Source of the DNA: Terrimicrobiaceae bacterium
GTDB taxonomy: Bacteria; Verrucomicrobiota; Verrucomicrobiia; Chthoniobacterales; Terrimicrobiaceae
Assembly (NCBI GenBank): GCA_018402345.1
Contig: JAGYIV010000010.1
Location: 62,001-126,000 of the forward strand
Direction of reading: 5' to 3'
DNA length: 64,000 nucleotides
Position 1 is the first letter of the stretch. Every line of letters starts with the position of its first letter. This document shows, one piece after another, positions 28,036-38,561 of the stretch. A program made the position numbers and the translations under genes. The notes beneath the pieces were generated by a model. It did not search any database, was not told the DNA's origin, and saw only the letters and a list, made by a program, of their open reading frames with translations.

Positions 28036-28902
28036 CTACTCTAATCGCTTCAATGCGGACAAGGGAACACACTCCTTGACTACCATTTGAGGAGATCTTT
28101 TTGAAGAACTACACGAGCCGCATTTGTCTTCAGCGGGGCCAGTGTAAATGGTGCTTGTTCTGGATACCATACCCACCACAGCTCCACTGTCATCAAGCAC
28201 AGGGCAACCGGAACTTCCCACGGCATAATCCGCTGTAACATTCATCCACACCGGTTGTCCCTCTTCCCCTCCGCGTGAAAATCGCGATACAATTCCCTGA
28301 CTGATATACCACAAACGCCCTCCCGGGTGGCTCAAAACTGAAATATCCTCCCCGGGCTTTACGTTCTCGGCAAGTCGCAGAAATGGCAACCTCTCTCCTG
28401 CTGGATCTATTTTAAGCACCGCAATGTCCGAGATTTTGTCACTGAAACACTGGGCTTTGACGGGGTATACGTTGCCTTCCGAGGTCATGATGCCAAGGTG
28501 CTCACCGCTTTTTTTCTCAACGACATGTTCATTGGTGACAATGTGTCCCTCTGGCGAAGCAATCCACCCTCCTGCAAATCCGCCATGGTGCCATTTCGAA
28601 CATTCACCGCATTGATAAATCCTTCCCACAAGAACAACTGCAGGAAGGCAGAGCTCATAGATATCAAGCTTGGATGAACGGATAGCTCCTTCAGCGGAAG
28701 GAAATCTGAACCCCTCTGGGCATCCATGGTGAGCATCGCTGGAACCAGAGAGGTTGTCCTGAGAAACAATCGCGCTCATTTTATTAATGAAAAGATTAAC
28801 AAAATCCGCGTCGTCGACCACGCGATCTGCTTCTGCCTGAGGGAAAGTTCCCACAAAACAGATTGCTCCGATTACCCAACAAACTGGCAGGCGTGGAACC
28901 AT
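28036..28902 (-). CDS. Secreted trypsin-like (S1/HtrA-type) serine protease
   Basis: 288 residues from the ATG at 28902, which overlaps the FAH stop codon by one base (TGATG). Signal peptide MVPRLPVCWVIGAICFVG ending near QAEA. Catalytic triad: His in HIVTNEHVV, Asp in SDIAVLKID, Ser in AVGSSGCPVLDD. There is no PDZ domain. Two Cys clusters (CGEC near the middle, CGSC near the C-terminus) could form disulfides or bind metal. Its base composition is visibly AT-richer than the adjoining operon genes, so it may be a newcomer added to the operon's 3' end beside the IS. Substrate unknown. Confidence 0.85.
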   Translation of the reverse strand: MVPRLPVCWVIGAICFVGTFPQAEADRVVDDADFVNLFINKMSAIVSQDNLSGSSDAHHGCPEGFRFPSAEGAIRSSKLDIYELCLPAVVLVGRIYQCGECSKWHHGGFAGGWIASPEGHIVTNEHVVEKKSGEHLGIMTSEGNVYPVKAQCFSDKISDIAVLKIDPAGERLPFLRLAENVKPGEDISVLSHPGGRLWYISQGIVSRFSRGGEEGQPVWMNVTADYAVGSSGCPVLDDSGAVVGMVSRTSTIYTGPAEDKCGSCSSSKRSPQMVVKECVPLSALKRLE

Positions 28903-29720
28903 CAGGCTGCCCCGGCGTTTTTCTCCAACACGACTGGATTGGTCAGGGAACCGATCCCGTCGATGTCGATCGTGACAGAATCCCCGGGCTTGAGCCACAC
29001 GGGGGGATTTGCGGCCATGCCGACGCCATGGGGCGTGCCGGTGAGGATCACCGTGCCGGGCAGCAATGTCGTGCTACCGCTGAGGAACTCGATGATCGAC
29101 GGCACGTCGAAAATCATGTCACCGGTATTCCAATCCTGCACCGCCCGTCCGTTCAGGATGGTGCGGATGCCGAGGTTGTTGGGATCGGGAATCTCATCGG
29201 CTGTGACGAGGCAGGGCCCGAGCGGCGCGAAGGTGTCGAACGTCTTGCCGCGGCACCATTGACTGCCCCCCCACTTGATTTGCCAATCACGCGCACTGAC
29301 ATCGTTCGCGCACGTGTAGCCAAGGACATGCTCGAGCGCATTTTCCCGGGAAACGTTCTTGCACTTCTTGCCAATCACAATTGCCAACTCGCACTCGTAG
29401 TCCACCTCGTAACTGGCAAGGCGGGTGGGGATTTCAATCGGATCGCCTGGATTCTGCACCGTGGAAGGCGCCTTCATGAATAGGATCGGCCGCTCGGGGA
29501 TTTTCGCGCCCGTCTCCTCGGCGTGCCTGCGGTAGTTGAGGCCGATGCAATAGATTGCCACAGGGTTGATTGGCGCGAGGAGTTTCGCCACATCGGCGAC
29601 CTCACCGCTCGGTGTCGGGTGTTCAAAGACGCACCCATCGAGCCTCTCGAAGCGCCCGTCGGCGTGCTGAATGGCATAGTAGATGGCGTGGTGCTTGTCG
29701 GAGTAGCGGATGATTTTCAT
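28902..29720 (-). CDS. Fumarylacetoacetate hydrolase (FAH) family protein
   Basis: 272 residues from the ATG at 29720 (MKIIRYSDKHHA). FAH-fold features: YCIGLNYRRHAEETG, PILFMKAPSTV, metal-binding Glu/Asp set in VDYECELAIVIGK, GYTCANDVSARDWQ and VILTGTPHGVG. Members hydrolyse diketo acids or act as hydratases/decarboxylases. In the non-phosphorylative L-fucose-type pathway a member cleaves 2,4-diketo-3-deoxy-L-fuconate. That is the best guess here because a sugar-acid dehydratase and SDRs lie in the same operon. It overlaps the upstream isomerase gene by four bases. Confidence 0.9.
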   Translation of the reverse strand: MKIIRYSDKHHAIYYAIQHADGRFERLDGCVFEHPTPSGEVADVAKLLAPINPVAIYCIGLNYRRHAEETGAKIPERPILFMKAPSTVQNPGDPIEIPTRLASYEVDYECELAIVIGKKCKNVSRENALEHVLGYTCANDVSARDWQIKWGGSQWCRGKTFDTFAPLGPCLVTADEIPDPNNLGIRTILNGRAVQDWNTGDMIFDVPSIIEFLSGSTTLLPGTVILTGTPHGVGMAANPPVWLKPGDSVTIDIDGIGSLTNPVVLEKNAGAA

Positions 29721-30553
29721 GTGTTTTGGAAAAGGGATTTGAGGAGGAGCGTTTCGGAGACGTTGTCGCAACGGTTGCAACCCTCCCAATCGATCCACAC
29801 ATATTCAAGGCAGATCCAGCCATCGTAACCGCGCGTGGCGAGCCGTTCGTTCACGGCAAGAAAGTCGATCACGTTCTCCGAGACCGGCGCCTGCAACCGT
29901 CCCTTTGCGGCACCCCGCGCGTGGAAATGCCCGGCGTGGTCGAGCAGTGGGTGGATCTCTTGATTTGAAAAACCGGCATAGACGAAATGCCCGTAGTCGA
30001 GAGTGAGCGTTATATCTCCCGCGAGCTTCACAAACTCGAGCGCCTTGTCCGGCGTCGGGGCGATCGATCCGACATGGGGCTCGACCGAGTAGCACAGCCC
30101 CGCCTCCCCTGCCAATGCGGCGCGGCGAGAGGATTCCTCCGCCGCACGCTGGAGTGAATCGCCATCGGCAACCCCCTCGAAGGAAACGCCAGGCAAACCG
30201 CTGAGATGCCTCGACCCGCAGGCAACAGCAAAATCAACAGCCCGCCGGAACATCTCGAATCCAGCCTCGCGTTCGGATTTCTCCGGATGATTCACAGCCC
30301 GCTGGCCGTGCGTGGTGCCGGTTTGCAAAAAGACATCGGAGGCAACGAGTCCAAGGTCGCCGAGGCGCGTTTTCAATATCGCACCCTCCTCGCTCTCTCG
30401 CCCGTGGACATCCTCCGGACGGAGATGGCTCCGGCCGTTGAAAAATCCGATGTCCACCCCCTGGACACCAAGCATGGAAATCAAACGGCACGAGTCCTCG
30501 TGCTTGAGCAGCGGGAACGTGAAATCGGCACAGGAGAGCGGAATGGACTTCAT
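29717..30553 (-). CDS. Sugar phosphate isomerase/epimerase family (TIM barrel)
   Basis: 278 residues from the ATG at 30553 (MKSIPLSCADFTF). Xylose-isomerase-like barrel with GVQGVDIGFFNG, HLSGLPGVSFEG, CYSVEPHVGSIAPT, ITLTLDYGHFVY, HFHARGAAKG and GWICLEYVW; Glu, Asp, His and Glu at the expected metal-ligand positions. Probably interconverts keto sugars or keto acids in the operon's pathway. Overlaps the 2-hydroxyacid dehydrogenase stop by four bases (ATGA-type coupling). Substrate not determinable from sequence. Confidence 0.87.
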   Translation of the reverse strand: MKSIPLSCADFTFPLLKHEDSCRLISMLGVQGVDIGFFNGRSHLRPEDVHGRESEEGAILKTRLGDLGLVASDVFLQTGTTHGQRAVNHPEKSEREAGFEMFRRAVDFAVACGSRHLSGLPGVSFEGVADGDSLQRAAEESSRRAALAGEAGLCYSVEPHVGSIAPTPDKALEFVKLAGDITLTLDYGHFVYAGFSNQEIHPLLDHAGHFHARGAAKGRLQAPVSENVIDFLAVNERLATRGYDGWICLEYVWIDWEGCNRCDNVSETLLLKSLFQNT

Positions 30554-31515
30554 GTGATGGAAACAGTGTTTTTGAAGTCTTCGCCACGGAGGCGCCGTGA
30601 CGCCTCCTCGGCGGCCAGGCGCTGGAGTTCGCCCACACTGTCGGCGCTGAACCACGCGGTGTGCGAGGTCAGCAAGGCGTTCGGGGCGGTGCGGAGCGGA
30701 TGGCCCGTTTCAAGAGGTTCGCTCTCGAACACATCCAATCCAGCGGCAAACGGCCGTCCCTTGGCCAGTGCGGCGGCGAGTGCGTGGGTGTCCGCAAGAC
30801 CACCCCGGGCGGTGTTGACGAGCACCGCATGGGATTTCATGAGTCCCAACCGAGCGGCGTTCGCAAAGTGTCGCGTCTCTTTTGTGAGCGGCAGGTTCAG
30901 CGAAAGAACGTCGGACTCGGAAAACAACTCCTCGACATCGAGACGCCGGACTCCCGCCTTCTCAAAGACCTCCGCTGGAACATAGGGATCGTAGGCGGCG
31001 GGGGCGCATCCGAAGGCGGCGGCGCGGGCCAGCACCGCTCGTGCGATGCGTCCGAACCCCGCCGTGGCAAAGGTCATCCGGCGAAGCGCGGGCATCGATT
31101 TCAAGGGCGGCGTGATCGCCCACTCACCGGCCCGCACCCGGGCATCGGTGCTCCCCAACTGGCGAACAAGCGCCAGCGCCAGCGCAAGCGTGTGGTCGGC
31201 GACATCGTCGATACAGTAGTCGGGCACATTCGCCACGGGAATGCCTGCAGCGGCGGCGGCAGCAAGATCGATGTTGTCCACGCCAATACCGTATCGAACG
31301 AGCCCCTTGCAGCGCTCCAGCCCCGCGATCACCGCCGCGTCAAGCGGCGCCCACTGGGCAATGACCACATCCGCCTCGCGGCAGAATTCAAGAACCTCAG
31401 CGGAGGTCTTGCACTGGCCGGCGCGAAGCTCGCCCCCGGCGGCCTCGACGATCCGGCGCTCGGTGTCGATAGTTGAAAATCCGTAATCGGTGATGCAAAC
31501 AACTGGTTTTTTCAT
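30550..31515 (-). CDS. D-2-hydroxyacid dehydrogenase (phosphoglycerate-dehydrogenase-like)
   Basis: 321 residues from the ATG at 31515 (MKKPVVCITDYGF); a longer upstream frame has no family resemblance. Nucleotide-binding loop ATAGFGRIARAVL, catalytic Arg in VNTARGGLAD, Glu in GLDVFESEPLETGHP and His in LLTSHTAWFS. The family reduces 2-keto acids or oxidises 2-hydroxyacids with NAD(P). Called C-terminal-binding-protein-like in annotation because of the YGIGVDNIDL segment. It overlaps both the ADC-like gene upstream and the isomerase downstream by four bases. Confidence 0.92.
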   Translation of the reverse strand: MKKPVVCITDYGFSTIDTERRIVEAAGGELRAGQCKTSAEVLEFCREADVVIAQWAPLDAAVIAGLERCKGLVRYGIGVDNIDLAAAAAAGIPVANVPDYCIDDVADHTLALALALVRQLGSTDARVRAGEWAITPPLKSMPALRRMTFATAGFGRIARAVLARAAAFGCAPAAYDPYVPAEVFEKAGVRRLDVEELFSESDVLSLNLPLTKETRHFANAARLGLMKSHAVLVNTARGGLADTHALAAALAKGRPFAAGLDVFESEPLETGHPLRTAPNALLTSHTAWFSADSVGELQRLAAEEASRRLRGEDFKNTVSIT

Positions 31516-32243
31516 GCGAGGTAGTCGTGAAGGATTTCGCCGGGAACGAGGGTGAATTCGGCCTTCCAATAGTAGCCCTCGAGTTCCTCGACCACCGGCA
31601 AGTGGTGGAGCGGAGCTTGGGCGTTGGGGAGAAGATCCACGGTGCACGGCCCGCGCCAGCATTCGTGGATTTTCACATCGGCCAACCGGCGGCTGGTGAT
31701 CTGGCGCACAGCGCATTCGCCGCTGATGTGTTGAAGCACCTTGTAATTCAGGTTCAGCGAAAAATCGAATGCGCTCCGCTTGAGGTCCTCGATCGATCCG
31801 CGTTGCTGCTTGTAGGCCATCGTGCCCGTGCAGCAATCGATACCGTTGCGCTCGAGGATGCCGACAATCAGGTCGCTCCGGTATTCAATGCGCGGGTTTC
31901 CCCACTTTTTTGGCTGACCGTGCACCTCCCTCCCCTGCGTGAGCCCGCCGTCGCTGTTGAGAAAAAGAAACGGTGAAAATCCCCCGACCGCCTTTCCAGG
32001 CAGTTCCGCCCCGAGCATGACATTGCACTCGCCGTAGCGGCCGAGCCAATCGACATCCCCCATGTTGTAAATGTGCACCAGCACCTGGTCGCTGACCGCG
32101 CGGAGCGGCTCGGGAAGCATGCGTTGCACTGCCTCTGGCGTGGTTCGGTAAACAAGCGTGAGCACCTCGACATCGCGGAAGGTGAAGGGAAAGGGTGTCA
32201 CGAGCGGCGCTTCCGTGGGGGTGGACCAGTGGTTGGGTTTCAT
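31512..32243 (-). CDS. Acetoacetate decarboxylase (ADC) superfamily protein
   Basis: 243 residues from the ATG at 32243 (MKPNHWSTPTEAP). ADC-fold segments: LTLVYRTTPEAVQRMLPEPL, YGECNVMLG, GGFSPFLFLNSD and GREVHGQPKKWGNPRIEY. The last matches the family's PKK motif containing the Schiff-base lysine. ADC-like enzymes include decarboxylases and unrelated aldolase-dehydratases. A member inside a sugar-acid operon is unusual; it may act on a diketo or lactone intermediate. Overlaps the dehydrogenase downstream by four bases. Confidence 0.87.
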   Translation of the reverse strand: MKPNHWSTPTEAPLVTPFPFTFRDVEVLTLVYRTTPEAVQRMLPEPLRAVSDQVLVHIYNMGDVDWLGRYGECNVMLGAELPGKAVGGFSPFLFLNSDGGLTQGREVHGQPKKWGNPRIEYRSDLIVGILERNGIDCCTGTMAYKQQRGSIEDLKRSAFDFSLNLNYKVLQHISGECAVRQITSRRLADVKIHECWRGPCTVDLLPNAQAPLHHLPVVEELEGYYWKAEFTLVPGEILHDYLA

Positions 32244-32248
32244 AAAAA

Positions 32249-33040
32249 TCAGCAGGTGTGCATGAACCCGCCGCACACGTTAATGTGTTGGCCGGTGATG
32301 AATGCGGCTTTCGGTCCGGCAAGAAAGACGATCAGGTTCGCGATATCCTCGGGCGCGCCAAGCCGGCGGAGCGGGGTCTGGGCCGTCCAAGCCTCGGTGA
32401 GTTGTTCGGGTGTCTTGCCGGTGAGCGTCGCCAGTTCAGCGAAATTTTGCTTCCACATATCGGTGACCACCACAGCGGGGCTCACAGTGTTCACCCGAAT
32501 TCCAGCCGGCCCGTAAGCGAGCGCGAGGGATTCGGTGACACTGACCACGCCGGCCTTCGCGGCGGCATAGTGGGCCGAGAGAGCGCGCCCCTTGCGGGCG
32601 GCATTCGAGGCAAGGTTGACAATCGCCCCGCCCCGCCCCCCAGCCTTCATCGCCTCGGCGGCCGCCACGCCGATGAAAAACAGAGACCTCAGATCGATCT
32701 CGAGCACCTCGTCCCATTCCTCGGCGGCAATCGTGTTGATGGAGTTGAAATGGCACACGCCTGCGGAACTCACGAGGATATCGATCCCTCCAGCCTTCTC
32801 CACGGCTTCGTTGACCACGGATTTCGCCGCATCCGCCGGGCGCAGGTCGCGAACAATCGCGAAATGCGCGGCGCCGCAAGGGGACTCGAGCGAGGCGATC
32901 GTCTCGCGGGACCGTTGCTCCTGACGGTCGACCGCCACAATCCGCGCGCCGAGGGCAGCGAATTGCTTGGCACATTGCAGTCCGAATCCGCTGCCGGCTC
33001 CGGTGACCAGGATGGTTTTGTTTTCGAATTCCATAATCAT
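32249..33040 (-). CDS. SDR-family NAD(P)-dependent oxidoreductase (first of two)
   Basis: 263 residues. Classical SDR: TGAGSGFG cofactor loop, NNAG-equivalent SSAG, catalytic Ser-Tyr-Lys in ASNAARKGRALSAHYAAAKAG and C-terminal TGQHINVCGGF. Atypical is the SSAG in place of NNAG. Starts at 33040 (MIMEFENK) or 33034 (MEFENK), overlapping the dehydratase stop by four bases. By pathway analogy one SDR would oxidise the sugar and the other a 2-keto-3-deoxy acid, but which does which is not clear. Confidence 0.9.
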   Translation of the reverse strand: MIMEFENKTILVTGAGSGFGLQCAKQFAALGARIVAVDRQEQRSRETIASLESPCGAAHFAIVRDLRPADAAKSVVNEAVEKAGGIDILVSSAGVCHFNSINTIAAEEWDEVLEIDLRSLFFIGVAAAEAMKAGGRGGAIVNLASNAARKGRALSAHYAAAKAGVVSVTESLALAYGPAGIRVNTVSPAVVVTDMWKQNFAELATLTGKTPEQLTEAWTAQTPLRRLGAPEDIANLIVFLAGPKAAFITGQHINVCGGFMHTC

Positions 33041-34167
33041 GAAAGGGTGTATTTGCGGACGATCTCCTCGCGAACGGCAACACCAAGGCCTCCGGTCTCA
33101 CGCACCTCGAGCAAGCCGCCCTTTTGTTCCCACGGGTCCTCGACCAACTCGTGTTGCATGGGAGACGGGTGCGGCTTGAAATCCATCGCCGCTCCGCACG
33201 GAAAGGCGGCAAGCAGATGCACCCCTACGGCGGTGTTCACCGCGCTGCTCCAGGTGTGGGTGGAAAACCTCAGATGGTTGAGTTCGACCATCGAGGCAGC
33301 TTTCAGGCACCCGGTCACACCGAGACAACGCCCCGGATCCACCTGAATGACATCCGCCGCCCCCGCGGCAATGAGCCTCCTGTAGCCCTCGGGAGTCCAC
33401 TCCTGCTCCCCTGTCCCGATCGGCACGGCCACGGCGGCACGTAGGGCGGCATGGGCCTCGTAGTCCCATGGCGGCAGCGGCTCCTCGATCCACAGGGGCC
33501 TCAGCGGTTCCATCTCGCGAATACGGCGGATTGCCGTGGGCAAATCCCAACGCGTCCGCGCCGCGAGGATATCCAACACAAAATTTCCCTCCGCTCCCAT
33601 GATCTCCCGGATTCCCGTGGCGAGCCTCATGTCGAGATCCCGCCGTTCGCCAAGCACAGGCCCAGGCCGCACTCCCCAGCCTCCTTTGACAATCGTGTAG
33701 CCCCAGTCGCGAAATGCCTCGAACTCCCGCAGGCACCACTCAATGTCATCCATGTTCAAGTGGATGCATGCCATCACAGGAATCGCCTCGCGTTTCCTCG
33801 CTCCGAACAATCTGCAAAGCGGCTGCCCAAGCATCTTTCCCTTCAAATCCCAAATCGCCGTGTCGAGCGCGCTGATCGCCATCGCGGCCACCCCCTCCCG
33901 GCCATACCACCAGACATGCCCCACCATTTTGTCCCAAAGACGCTCGGCATCGAGGGGGGACTCGCCGATCAACAGGGGAGCCAGCCCGTTCTCCCCAATG
34001 GTTTTCACGGCCATCGAGCACTCGGGCCACATGGTGATCGCCTCACCCCATCCCAACGTGCCGTCGGACAACTCGATGCGGGCCACGGCAATGTGGCGCA
34101 TCCGGTTGTGGTCATGCGGTTCGGGATAGGTGAGCGGGGTGATGCTGATTGATCGAATGACACTCAT
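33037..34167 (-). CDS. Enolase-superfamily sugar-acid dehydratase (mandelate racemase subgroup)
   Basis: 376 residues. N-terminal capping domain, then barrel motifs: a Lys in YTIVKGGWGVRPG, metal ligands Asp in FVLDILAARTRW, Glu in LWIEEPLPPWD and Glu in IGTGEQEWT, the Asp of VIQVDPGRCLG and the His of FSTHTWSS, which form the His-Asp dyad typical of the MR subgroup. Members dehydrate aldonates such as fuconate, rhamnonate, galactonate or gluconate to 2-keto-3-deoxy acids. Nine bases after the second SDR. Substrate unassigned; a 6-deoxy sugar acid is plausible from the operon. Confidence 0.92.
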   Translation of the reverse strand: MSVIRSISITPLTYPEPHDHNRMRHIAVARIELSDGTLGWGEAITMWPECSMAVKTIGENGLAPLLIGESPLDAERLWDKMVGHVWWYGREGVAAMAISALDTAIWDLKGKMLGQPLCRLFGARKREAIPVMACIHLNMDDIEWCLREFEAFRDWGYTIVKGGWGVRPGPVLGERRDLDMRLATGIREIMGAEGNFVLDILAARTRWDLPTAIRRIREMEPLRPLWIEEPLPPWDYEAHAALRAAVAVPIGTGEQEWTPEGYRRLIAAGAADVIQVDPGRCLGVTGCLKAASMVELNHLRFSTHTWSSAVNTAVGVHLLAAFPCGAAMDFKPHPSPMQHELVEDPWEQKGGLLEVRETGGLGVAVREEIVRKYTLS

Positions 34168-34176
34168 AAAAAATCC

Positions 34177-34944
34177 TTAAAGTTGGGCGAGCCACCCGCC
34201 GTCCACCGTGATCGTCGACCCGTTGACATACGCGCTCTCCTTGGAGCCCAGAAACACATAGGCCCCCTTCAAATCCTCCGGATCGCCGAAGCGCCCCAGC
34301 GCGCAACGGCCCTGTAAAAATGGATCCGCGATCCCCGGTGTGGTCGAGGCCTCGTCGTTGATCTCGGTGTGGATCCAACCCGGCGCCACGGCGTTCACAT
34401 TGATGCCCAGCCTGCCGAGTTCCAGGGCCATGCCCTGCATGAGCACATGCAAACCGCCCTTTGTCGTGCAGTAGTGGGTCTGTGTCGGATTCGAGCGCAC
34501 CGCCCCCACGCTAGTGGTGAAAACGATCCTTCCCCCACGCCCCTGCGCGACCATGATTTTTGCCGCCTCCTGCGACACGTAAAACGCACCGTCGAGATTA
34601 ATGCCCACATGCCGTTTCCAATCCTCGTCGCAAAGTTCGAGGAACGGCTTGAAGTCGCAGATGCCGGCATTGCACACAACGATGTCGAGCCCACCCAGAA
34701 GCTCCGTGGCCCGTCGTGTCATGGCGCGTGCCTGCGATGGATCGGAGACATCCGCCTCCACAGCGAACGCCCGCACCTTGCATCGATCAGCAATCGCCTT
34801 GGCCGCCGCCTGTAGGCGCCCGGCATCGCCGAAACTGTTGATCACGACATCGCATCCGGCCTCCGCAAAGGCCTCGGCTGCGGCAAGGCCGATTCCACGG
34901 CTCGCGCCGGTGACAAGGACATGGTTTCCAATCGGTGTGTTCAT
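34177..34944 (-). CDS. SDR-family NAD(P)-dependent oxidoreductase (second of two)
   Basis: 255 residues from the ATG at 34944 (MNTPIGNHVLVTG). Motifs: TGASRGIGLAAAEAF, VCNAG, the catalytic Ser-Tyr-Lys set TSVGAVRSNPTQTHYCTTKG, PGWIHTEIN and VNGSTITVDGGWLAQL. The NSFGDAGR segment after beta-2 lacks an acidic residue at the usual NAD-selecting position, which may indicate NADP use. First catabolic gene after the IclR gene (11 bases), so probably the entry dehydrogenase of the pathway (inference). Confidence 0.92.
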   Translation of the reverse strand: MNTPIGNHVLVTGASRGIGLAAAEAFAEAGCDVVINSFGDAGRLQAAAKAIADRCKVRAFAVEADVSDPSQARAMTRRATELLGGLDIVVCNAGICDFKPFLELCDEDWKRHVGINLDGAFYVSQEAAKIMVAQGRGGRIVFTTSVGAVRSNPTQTHYCTTKGGLHVLMQGMALELGRLGINVNAVAPGWIHTEINDEASTTPGIADPFLQGRCALGRFGDPEDLKGAYVFLGSKESAYVNGSTITVDGGWLAQL

Positions 34945-34955
34945 GGTTGTGGGAT

Positions 34956-35660
34956 TCAAAGGGGTTCGAAGGATTCCGAGATGTGTCGTGCGCACGCCTC
35001 GAGGGCAGGGAGGAGTTTTTTCACGGTTTTAACCTTCCCGCTCGCCGGATCCAGCCACGAGGTCGCGATGGCGGCGATCGCCGTTCCATCTCGTGCCAGC
35101 ACAGGAACCGCAAGGTCGTTCACCCCCCGGAACAAATGACTCTGGGAATACTCGTGGCCACTCTCGCGGATCGCGCCATACCGCTTTTCCGCGCCGCCGC
35201 CAAACGCCATAAGAACCCTGCCGGAGACCGTCTCCACAGGCTTGTGCGACGACCCCACACGCACACCGATCTTCAAATACCCCGTCCCCGGCGCGTCGGC
35301 CAAAATCAACAGGTCCCCGTCGTCCAATACGCTCAAATGAATCCCTTCGCCGGTCCCGGCCGCATAGTCGCCCAGCGGCCCCATCGCATTCGCGACCAGA
35401 TCGCGATAGGGCGGATTGTGATTGCCGATGCGGAACAACTTCGAACTCCTCCTGTAAAGCCCCCGTGAATCCCTGACGAAATACCCCCGTTGCGCCAAAT
35501 ACGGCACCACCCGCTGCATCTCGGACACCGAGCGCCCGCACGATCGCGCAATCTCCGTGAGGCTCATCGCCCCGGCTCCGCGGTGAACAAGCTCCAAGGC
35601 ATCCAAGCCTTTTTCCAAGGCTGGCACATTAAAGTTCCCATTTGCGGGATCGTTTCCCAT
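34956..35660 (-). CDS. IclR-family transcriptional regulator
   Basis: 234 residues from the ATG at 35660 (MGNDPANGNFNVPA); an upstream in-frame start at 35720 is less likely. N-terminal winged HTH (LTEIARSCGRSVSEMQRVVP) and C-terminal GAF-like ligand domain (ETVSGRVLMAFGGG, DLAVPVLARDGTAIAAIA). IclR proteins usually repress or activate adjacent catabolic operons in response to an intermediate. It is the first gene of the minus-strand operon, so autoregulation with the pathway is probable. It diverges from the pseudopilin at 35777 across about 115 bases. Confidence 0.92.
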   Translation of the reverse strand: MGNDPANGNFNVPALEKGLDALELVHRGAGAMSLTEIARSCGRSVSEMQRVVPYLAQRGYFVRDSRGLYRRSSKLFRIGNHNPPYRDLVANAMGPLGDYAAGTGEGIHLSVLDDGDLLILADAPGTGYLKIGVRVGSSHKPVETVSGRVLMAFGGGAEKRYGAIRESGHEYSQSHLFRGVNDLAVPVLARDGTAIAAIATSWLDPASGKVKTVKKLLPALEACARHISESFEPL

Positions 35661-35776
35661 TTGAGAAAGAATCCATGACCGATCCGTTCTTGCCAACATT
35701 TTTTTCCAGTGAACACCCACCCCCGACGAGAGCGGTATTGTGCAGGGAACGATTCCCGCGTATTCGTCACACCACG

Positions 35777-37089: not shown

Positions 37090-37165
37090 GGTGGTCGTAG
37101 CTCAATGGCAGAGCTCCAGGTTGTGGTCCTGGCTGTTGCGGGTTCGAGTCCCGTCGATCACCCCA
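37090..37165 (+). tRNA. tRNA-His (anticodon GTG)
   Basis: Acceptor stem GTGGTCG (37091-37097) pairs with CGATCAC (37155-37161), with one G-U pair. The D-loop has AGCTCAATGGCAGAGCT, the anticodon arm is CCAGGTTGTGGTCCTGG with GTG, and the T arm is GCGGGTTCGAGTCCCGT. The base before the stem is G (37090) and the discriminator is C (37162), giving the G-1:C73 pair specific to tRNA-His. CCA is encoded at 37163-37165. It lies 7 bases from the convergent DASS transporter stop. Confidence 0.97.
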
Positions 37166-37172
37166 CCCTCAC

Positions 37173-38561
37173 TCAAAAAACCAACACCTTGACCCTGATC
37201 AGCAGCGGCAGAAGGGTGAACACAAGAACCAAGCCCAATGCCCCAACCACCACCGCAGGCACGGCGCCATCCCTCACAGTCAACCCTCCCCTCGCATAGG
37301 CAAGGGCGTTCGGCGGCGTGCTGATCGGCAACGCAAATCCCAGACAGGCGGCCAGTGCGAGGCTGATCGCAGCTTGATCCACGGCGAGATTGCCGGAGAT
37401 CGACGTGGCCGAAACCCCGATCGGCAAAAGCAGGTTCGCCGCAGCAGTATTCGACATGAACGTGCTGAGCGCGGCAGTGAACACGGCGATCAGCACGACC
37501 AATCCCATGCCTCCGAAGGGCAGCCCCCCCAACCAACCCGCGATCACCTTGTCGAGTCCACTCATTTGCATCCCCGCCCCGAGCGAAATCCCGCCGGCAA
37601 TCAAAATCAGCACGTCCCATTCGATCGATTTCAAGTCCTCGGAATCAAGGATACCGGACGTGGTGAACACAATCACCGGCAAGAGTGCAACAACAGAGGC
37701 AGGCAGGCCGGTCATGCGGTCCGATAGCCAGAGCGCCACCGTCAGAAAAAACACGCAGATCACCATCCAACCCTGCCGCGAGGGCCTCGCACCGTCGATC
37801 GAGAGATCAAGCGGCGCGGTGCCGGGCTTGAACCAGCTCACCAAAAACCACCACGCGAACCCGAGCAGCAGGGCGGCCACCGGCAGGGCGAGGAACATCC
37901 ACTCGAGAAAATCCACAGGCGTGCCCGCATGCTCGAGATACCCGATCGCCACAAGGTTCGGCGGACTGCCGATCGGCGTCCCCATGCCGCCGAGATTGGC
38001 GGCGAAGGCCACCCCGAGGAGCAGGGCTTTGCGGAGCGGGCTGGCATAATCGAGCGTGATCAGCAACGGCCCGAGCACAGCAAGCATCATGGCGGCGGTC
38101 GCCGTGTTGCTCATCCACATCGAAAAGACCGCCGTCACGAGCATAACCCCGAAGAGCACCGTTCGGGGCTTCTTTCCAAAGGGACGGAGAAAGACCACCG
38201 AGAGTGTGCGGTCGACGCGGGTTTTCTCGGCGGCCTTGGCCAGCAGGAATCCCCCGAAAAACAAAAACAACACGGGATCGGCGGCAGCGGCGGTGATCGC
38301 CACGTAATTCGGAGCCTTTCCGGACTCGAACCCAAGGAAGGACCATCCTCCGGGATTCGCCAACAACAACACCTGCAGGCCGAACACAAGGATCGCCGTG
38401 GCGAACAGCGGAATCGCCTCGGTGCACCACAGAATCGCCGCGAGCACAAAGATGCCGCCCATCGCGGCGACTTCCCGGGGACACCCTCCGGCATCCGCCA
38501 AACTCCACGACGCAGCAAGCGCGGCGAGAACGGCGAGGAGGAAGTGGATGGATTGCTTCAT
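37173..38561 (-). CDS. DASS/SLC13-family sodium:dicarboxylate (or sulfate) symporter
   Basis: 462 residues with about 11-12 membrane helices. Family signatures: LFLFFGGFLLAKAAEKTRVD, the SNT motif in WMSNTATAAMMLAVLGPL and the second in FMSNTAAANLLLPIG, plus GMGTPIGSPPNLVAIGYL. The two SNT motifs line the substrate and Na+ site. Members move C4-dicarboxylates, citrate or sulfate. Its ATG overlaps the stop of the 1146-residue gene upstream (four bases). If that gene is PPi-PEPCK, oxaloacetate-related dicarboxylate transport is a sensible partner. Confidence 0.9.
   Translation of the reverse strand: MKQSIHFLLAVLAALAASWSLADAGGCPREVAAMGGIFVLAAILWCTEAIPLFATAILVFGLQVLLLANPGGWSFLGFESGKAPNYVAITAAAADPVLFLFFGGFLLAKAAEKTRVDRTLSVVFLRPFGKKPRTVLFGVMLVTAVFSMWMSNTATAAMMLAVLGPLLITLDYASPLRKALLLGVAFAANLGGMGTPIGSPPNLVAIGYLEHAGTPVDFLEWMFLALPVAALLLGFAWWFLVSWFKPGTAPLDLSIDGARPSRQGWMVICVFFLTVALWLSDRMTGLPASVVALLPVIVFTTSGILDSEDLKSIEWDVLILIAGGISLGAGMQMSGLDKVIAGWLGGLPFGGMGLVVLIAVFTAALSTFMSNTAAANLLLPIGVSATSISGNLAVDQAAISLALAACLGFALPISTPPNALAYARGGLTVRDGAVPAVVVGALGLVLVFTLLPLLIRVKVLVF

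Follow-up and report, generated by a model that had tools for sequence, protein, structure and literature searches.

A separate branch of acetoacetate decarboxylase-like proteins recurs with sugar-acid genes and a 2-hydroxyacid dehydrogenase in distant bacteria

The window considered here, a 64,000-nucleotide stretch of a Terrimicrobiaceae genome (contig JAGYIV010000010.1, positions 62,001 to 126,000), contains an operon with a gene for a protein resembling acetoacetate decarboxylase (ADC). We saw that this protein belongs to a separate monophyletic branch of the ADC family and that its pairing with a 2-hydroxyacid dehydrogenase recurs in distant bacteria, across phyla. Judged by its residues and gene neighbours, the enzyme probably serves another reaction than the decarboxylation of acetoacetate: it likely forms an imine while acting on a sugar acid of the 2-keto-3-deoxy or 2,4-diketo-3-deoxy type. 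The best explanation, to which we give about even chances, is that a distinct ADC-like branch works inside non-phosphorylative sugar-acid breakdown, with chemistry of aldol or dehydration type. The gene in question is the following.

31512..32243, minus strand: ADC-fold protein of 243 amino acids, ATG at 32243 (open reading frame, Pfam, PDB sequence matches, alignment, AlphaFold2 model); key residues K112, predicted to form the imine, K113, E72, Q110, S90 and Y59, with H57 and V25 standing where classical ADCs have Glu61 and Arg29.

In a tree of 58 rows, 37 rows at identity of at least 52% were split with support 100/100 from 19 classical rows (including 3bh2 and 3bgt); two intermediates (45% and 40%) fell on the branch's side, the placement of the long-branched 40% one being unsure. 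The 37 branch rows are 52–88% identical to the window protein and come from Verrucomicrobiota, Hyphomicrobiales, Deinococcota and a metagenome-assembled genome (MAG) labelled Phycisphaerales.

Membership in the superfamily is clear from the match to the Pfam ADC family PF06314 (1.7e-50 over 229 residues, 172 bits with a cut-off of 29.8); the solved ADCs 3bgt, 3bh2 and 3c8w were matched at 1.7e-34 to 1e-26. Structure prediction, which the initial annotation had proposed as a check, returned the ADC fold: the AlphaFold2 model, built from an alignment of 40 sequences, has pLDDT 92.3 and pTM 0.89. Foldseek found 24 PDB chains below 1e-3 with this model, all ADC-like. In VIA-align 2 the top entries were 3bgt (Z 32.1, 240 residues, rmsd 2.0), 3c8w (31.8) and 3bh2 (30.8), followed by a Streptomyces aldolase-dehydratase (6eej/4zbt, 26.9), Swit_4259 (26.5), MppR (26) and 3cmb (24.7); after the ADC-like entries the following one reached only Z 7.0.

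The residues that separate the branch from classical ADCs were read from 57 rows aligned with MAFFT; 3bh2 is one of them and provides the numbering of the columns. The window protein carries HGQPKKWGNP, with K112 and K113 aligned with K115 and K116 of 3bh2; this PKK lysine pair, already pointed out in the initial annotation, is kept in 37/37 branch members, so the motif is not a chance resemblance. We take Arg29, Glu61, Glu76 and Lys115 to be residues lining the ADC active site. In the window protein Glu76, Lys115 and Lys116 are kept (E72, K112, K113), whereas Arg29 and Glu61 are absent (V25, H57). Each of the 37 branch rows has His at Glu61, Tyr at Met63, Ser at Leu93 and Gln at Tyr113, along with Glu76, Lys115 and Lys116. 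The Arg29 column of the branch holds Val (16 rows), Ala (11), Cys (5), Thr (3), Leu (1) and one gap in a truncated row; none of the 36 rows ungapped at this column has Arg29, and none of the 37 has Glu61. The 45% intermediate has the full signature H61/E76/Q113/K115/K116.

Among the 17 classical rows (the portion of the classical Hyphomicrobiales matches for which a locus was retrieved), Arg29, Glu61 and Phe113 are present in 17/17 and Glu76 and Lys115 in 15/17. Both exceptions are tandem copies that lost Lys115 together with Glu76: at L061:700-1419 and L066:692-1405 the first copy of a classical tandem pair carries Gln and Gly at the positions of Lys115 and Glu76, respectively. Such first copies are predicted, from these residues, to be dead copies beside intact ones.

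Beginning with the operon's first gene, the order in the window is IclR, SDR2, MR, SDR1, ADC, 2-hydroxyacid dehydrogenase, TIM barrel and FAH; besides the ADC-like gene given above, the members are as follows.

34956..35720, minus strand: IclR-type regulator, first gene of the operon (Pfam/NCBIfam).
34177..34944, minus strand: SDR2, short-chain dehydrogenase/reductase (SDR), ATG at 34944; closest NCBIfam model L-rhamnose 1-dehydrogenase Lra1, below cut-off.
33037..34167, minus strand: MR, candidate sugar-acid dehydratase of the enolase superfamily, mandelate racemase type (Pfam/NCBIfam).
32249..33040, minus strand: SDR1, candidate sugar or 2-keto-3-deoxy acid dehydrogenase (Pfam/NCBIfam).
30550..31515, minus strand: D-2-hydroxyacid dehydrogenase, CtBP/hydroxypyruvate-reductase like, overlapping the ADC-like gene by 4 nt.
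29717..30553, minus strand: xylose-isomerase-like TIM barrel, weakly similar to hydroxypyruvate isomerase and inosose dehydratase, overlapping the dehydrogenase gene by 4 nt; no PDB sequence match at 1e-5.
28902..29720, minus strand: FAH-family hydrolase with HxxE pair H66 and E69, candidate 2,4-diketo-3-deoxy acid hydrolase.

The junctions from SDR2 to FAH measure +9, -4, +5, -4, -4 and -4 nt. The stop codon TGA of the ADC-like gene does overlap the ATG of the dehydrogenase gene, but this cannot by itself mark the dehydrogenase as a partner, because 4/6 operon junctions overlap by 4 nt (MR/SDR1, ADC/dehydrogenase, dehydrogenase/TIM barrel and TIM barrel/FAH); with such an overlap being the rule in the window operon, we rejected it as a special sign of pairing. 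A 'sugar operon' had been proposed from the window alone, and the family content, together with rhamnose-type transporters and mutarotases beside relatives, bears this out. We rejected the assignment of a particular sugar, as none of the NCBIfam equivalog models listed for the operon enzymes (for the two SDRs, the best 25 of 233 and of 231 models) passed its cut-off; the scores were 211 of 500 for FAH, 244 of 400 for SDR2 and 147 of 500 for MR. No sugar-lactone hydrolase was recognised by Pfam or NCBIfam among the eight genes, and no natural-product genes were recognised in the operon.

The operon looks accessory in this lineage, because congeners were without matches to its ADC and MR genes. 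Among 286 genomes of the window's class, five had an ADC-like match, including the window itself and one at 41%, and the four congeners sampled there had none. At E ≤ 1e-80 the MR gene went unmatched in the 15 other searched genomes of the genus; eight of these fall short of 90% completeness or are for another reason not counted as good quality. Counted over the eight good-quality genomes of the genus, it is present in one, the window's own.

Elsewhere, a named genome collection gave 11 loci, 54–88% identical, labelled Verrucomicrobiota, Phycisphaerales, Hyphomicrobiales, Deinococcota and, in one case, Betaproteobacteria. The last (L010, CAJCIA010000079.1) is apparently the same contig as that of G163, a genome of the window's class, and its title looks wrong. 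Among 297 Hyphomicrobiales genomes, 20 had a match at 56–63%, all other listed matches (E ≤ 1e-20) being at ≤35%; in the phylum of the Deinococcota MAG, 7 of 111 genomes had a match at 46–64%. A plasmid collection yielded 70 matched records; among the 40 listed, two belonged to the branch (57.9 and 59.5%), and the next best stood at 34.6%.

To characterize the gene context we sorted by family the genes lying no more than 6 kb from the ADC gene at 37 branch loci and at 23 classical loci (20 Hyphomicrobiales stretches and three plasmids); the branch set excludes the two intermediates, L096 and L101, as well as the duplicates L102–L105. Several of the 37 loci are closely related, so that counts and p-values are not independent; the neighbour queries were themselves collected at branch loci, a choice that favours the families of the branch; and the classical set is drawn from a single order. 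Read in this light, the CtBP-like 2-hydroxyacid dehydrogenase was present at 21/37 branch and 0/23 classical loci, MR at 23/37 and 0/23, GntR at 20/37 and 0/23, and a sugar ABC ATPase at 18/37 and 2/23. Further families were found at branch loci against 0/23 classical ones each: Gfo/Idh/MocA (12/37), TIM barrel (11/37), the rhamnose-type mutarotase RhaM (11/37), rhamnose-type solute-binding protein (8/37) and FAH (7/37). By Fisher's test no difference at p < 0.05 was seen for a Cys-rich family that we call C13 (6/37), MBL-like proteins (5/37) and IclR (3/37), each with 0/23 at classical loci, or for any SDR (34/37 and 18/23). MR or C13 occurs at 28/37 branch loci, and C13 at 5/14 loci without MR.

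The row of Shinella sp. PSBB067 illustrates such a context: MR, ADC and dehydrogenase genes overlap by 4 nt each, and downstream are a rhamnose-type ABC transporter, GntR, Gfo/Idh/MocA, TIM barrel and rhamnose mutarotase. In Chelativorans sp. AA-79 the row includes ADC, dehydrogenase, FAH, Gfo/Idh/MocA, TIM barrel, SDR and mutarotase. The three classical plasmid loci, in contrast to these sugar-acid contexts, have an SDR annotated as 3-hydroxybutyrate dehydrogenase and a patatin.

The partnership of ADC and dehydrogenase proposed in the initial annotation thus stands as a recurring pairing, the dehydrogenase gene touching the ADC gene (<60 nt, same strand) in 13 branch loci, and falls as far as it leaned on the 4-nt overlap. 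The more specific proposal, that the dehydrogenase uses the product of the ADC-like enzyme, is not supported, with 16/37 loci lacking a nearby dehydrogenase. A dehydrogenase relative at E ≤ 1e-50 was found in 18/24 branch-bearing genomes (in six of them at ≥58% identity). In G287 and G289 this relative has a different gene neighbourhood, which includes an SDR and, by Pfam in G287, a zinc alcohol dehydrogenase. The idea of the ADC-like enzyme being tied to one fixed dehydrogenase is weakened by these two genomes and by the six without a relative.

Near the ADC genes of L012 (12280-13743) and L013 we saw matching genes for a FAD-linked oxidase (FAD_binding_4 and FAD-oxidase_C; Pfam on L012), presumably of the D-lactate/glycolate oxidase type; possibly it stands in for the NAD-dependent 2-hydroxyacid dehydrogenase missing there. 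L-arabinose/L-fucose isomerase-like proteins are also found near ADC genes, at L015:3095-4549 and L078:11241-12683, the latter match being just below the Pfam cut-off.

How could an imine-forming enzyme serve such operons? By family, the MR dehydratase would make a 2-keto-3-deoxy sugar acid. Such a 4-hydroxy-2-oxo acid could be oxidised to the 2,4-diketo form by SDR1 or another SDR. Lys112 would form an imine with the ketone of either acid, Glu72 and His57 would act as proton shuttles, and Gln110, Ser90 and Tyr59 would make the pocket more polar; proton shifts would then lead to a C-O or C-C bond being broken or made, as in a dehydration or an aldol reaction, instead of loss of CO2. The 2-hydroxyacid dehydrogenase may handle the product of this step or the hydroxy- or ketoacid at the end of the pathway, and the FAH hydrolase may serve a pyruvate-releasing branch. 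Since 4-hydroxy-2-oxo and 2,4-diketo acids are natural imine partners, dehydration or aldol chemistry at K112 is favoured, and 4-hydroxy-2-oxo acids are indeed made and dehydrated by aldolase-dehydratases of the ADC fold. Aldol or dehydration chemistry, put forward in the initial annotation, appears plausible also from the loss of Arg29 and Glu61, which would fit it better than decarboxylation.

Acetoacetate decarboxylases (3bh2, 3bgt, 3c8w; PF06314, PRK02265) share with the window protein its fold (Z 30.8–32.1), its length and the residues Lys115, Lys116 and Glu76, and differ from the branch in that the latter has Arg29 and Glu61 replaced, Gln for Tyr/Phe113 and Tyr for Met/Ile63. The pyruvate aldolase-dehydratases Sbi00515 (4zbo, 4zbt, 6eej) and Swit_4259 (5upb) have the same fold (Z 26.5–26.9), and PDB titles of such enzymes name a Schiff base with pyruvate and a dienone product. 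In the profile alignment 6eej, like the branch, lacks Arg29 and Glu61 (gap at Val25, Met at the His57 column) and retains a Glu at Glu72 and PKK at PKK; unlike the window protein, it has Phe in place of Gln110 before PKK, and overall identity is 18–20%. MppR of enduracididine biosynthesis (4jm3, 4jmc, 4jmd, 4jme) also has this fold (Z about 26), and its active-site lysine, according to PMC10367076, is used to cyclise an alpha-keto acid; the window protein, however, is far below the cut-off of the MppR model TIGR04460 (25.3, cut-off 380), and its operon differs by the absence of recognised natural-product genes.

The pathway most similar by family to the window operon is the Route III non-phosphorylative pathway for deoxyhexoses and pentoses, with which it shares a set of 1-dehydrogenase, dehydratase, SDR and FAH hydrolase (PMC6336799). 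The same paper reports that the Herbaspirillum Route III dehydrogenase and hydrolase gave glycolate or lactate, with the diketo intermediate inferred and not directly identified, and names an HxxE pair for diketo-acid hydrolysis in FAH hydrolases; this pair is kept in the window FAH protein. The window operon differs from Route III in having the additional ADC, 2-hydroxyacid dehydrogenase and TIM barrel genes and no recognised lactonase. Among the listed titles and abstract openings of open-licence PMC papers, none concerned an ADC-like enzyme in a sugar-acid operon, which is weak evidence of novelty.

Several observations weigh against an imine step of aldol or dehydration type in sugar-acid breakdown. 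The window protein passes the NCBIfam model PRK02265 (acetoacetate decarboxylase, of the kind 'subfamily'; 164.1, cut-off 150), and its sequence lies closer to the ADCs than to the aldolase-dehydratases; the 40% relative L005 has Gln at position 61 and Arg at 116. The window operon already has a near-complete Route III set, leaving no obvious step for the ADC-like enzyme. Some of the neighbouring MR matches are only 22–35% identical; MR and C13 are both missing within 6 kb at 9/37 loci (one of these, L010, is cut by a contig end); a nearby dehydrogenase is missing at 16/37 loci, and in 6/24 genomes (G288, G292, G346, G396, G540, G557) no dehydrogenase relative was found at E ≤ 1e-50. With these enzymes missing from many loci and genomes, gene context does not fix the order of the pathway's steps.

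The enzyme might still be a decarboxylase, acting on a 3-keto sugar acid (a beta-keto acid produced by SDR or Gfo/Idh/MocA) to give a shorter ketose. The closest solved relatives are decarboxylases, PKK and Glu76 are kept throughout the branch, and Gfo/Idh/MocA (12/37) and xylose-isomerase-like partners (11/37) are at hand; such a reaction is possible above all in loci with these two families and without MR. We consider it unlikely for the branch as a whole: Arg29 and Glu61, present in every classical row, are gone, and the adjoining MR, if a dehydratase, would yield no beta-keto acid.

One could also think of a class I aldolase splitting the 2-keto-3-deoxy acid into pyruvate and an aldehyde, as in Route I. 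Pyruvate aldolases with the ADC fold do exist (the title of 4zbt mentions a pyruvate Schiff base), and several loci have MR immediately upstream. Yet no aldehyde dehydrogenase (PF00171) turned up at a distance of up to 20 kb from the ADC gene in 12/12 genomes or records, 6/12 of the contigs ending within that distance, and a plain retro-aldol reaction is for this reason less likely; in addition, a route by way of the FAH hydrolase is available, either within the operon or at another place in the genome. We regard this possibility as rather improbable. As to FAH, a relative in the wide family was found at E ≤ 1e-30 in 23/24 genomes (none in G286). Four genomes without FAH at the ADC locus (G287, G288, G289, G291) have a 64–70% relative on another contig, and the idea that ADC replaces FAH in the short operons L007–L009 and L011 was rejected on these grounds; the assemblies are fragmented, the ADC contig of L008 being only 28 kb.

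A helper role, in which an imine would assist opening or tautomerisation of cyclic hemiketal or enol forms of 2-keto or 2,4-diketo acids with no bond-breaking step, seems quite improbable: RhaM-type mutarotases adjoin ADC in 7/37 loci and FAH is present as the cleaving enzyme, but some of these operons already have a mutarotase, and we know of no precedent for such a role in the ADC fold. A non-catalytic binding or regulatory protein, suggested by the loss of two classical active-site residues, is hardly credible with K112, K113 and E72 invariant in 37/37 rows and the apparently decayed classical copies (L061, L066) losing exactly the lysine and Glu76.

Returning to the imine step on sugar acids, we propose, with somewhat less than even confidence, that an undescribed lysine-imine reaction on 2-keto-3-deoxy or 2,4-diketo-3-deoxy acids, coupled to a D-2-hydroxyacid dehydrogenase, constitutes a further non-phosphorylative route shared horizontally among Verrucomicrobiota, Hyphomicrobiales and Deinococcota, in which the C13 protein may stand for a missing dehydratase.

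The C13 proteins have about 250 amino acids (L016:7228-7980, L014:7216-7968; also L015, L097, L098, L078), and the motifs PCxSGG and YCxHC and a later Cys are invariant in 11 aligned sequences. Two members scanned had no Pfam or NCBIfam match, and that of L016 no PDB sequence match. The family was found in 4/111 genomes of the Deinococcota phylum, in all four directly upstream of a branch ADC gene, and in 9/297 Hyphomicrobiales genomes, two of these matches being weak; at L137 and L138, by eye, it makes up the C-terminal portion of a larger protein, next to a frame resembling glutamine synthetase. For a C13 model (pLDDT 82.9) Foldseek found no match below 1e-3; its best VIA Z, 6.9, was with a TRAPP subunit, and phenol-sensor domains (PoxR/DmpR type) scored about 5, values too weak to call.

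At some loci (L016:5612-6430, L007:5076-5999; also L008, L009, L011) an MBL-like protein, weakly similar to N-acyl homoserine lactonases (NCBIfam AiiA at 2.3e-6 for L016), occupies the place expected for a sugar lactonase. By eye its HxHxDH metal motif seems replaced, by TPLTAYATGG in L016 and TPLTSYATGG in L007.

Around the window operon, a tRNA-His gene (37091-37165), a possible integration landmark for an accessory operon, lies ~1.4 kb upstream of IclR, and at 37173-38561 there is a DASS-type sodium-coupled anion symporter (NCBIfam 264, cut-off 198.6), on the operon's strand with other frames and the tRNA gene in between. A transposase remnant suspected by eye near 27.0–27.9 kb had no Pfam match and was dropped.

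The ADC fold is a textbook case of lysine pKa shifting, and automatic annotation calls the branch genes acetoacetate decarboxylase, a name that would mislead models of acetone and ketone-body metabolism. The signature of H61 and Q113 with no R29 offers a clean basis for re-annotating the branch, and its loci provide a defined set of operons in which to seek an imine-dependent reaction on sugar acids; if that reaction is new, a further kind of chemistry would be added to the ADC fold.

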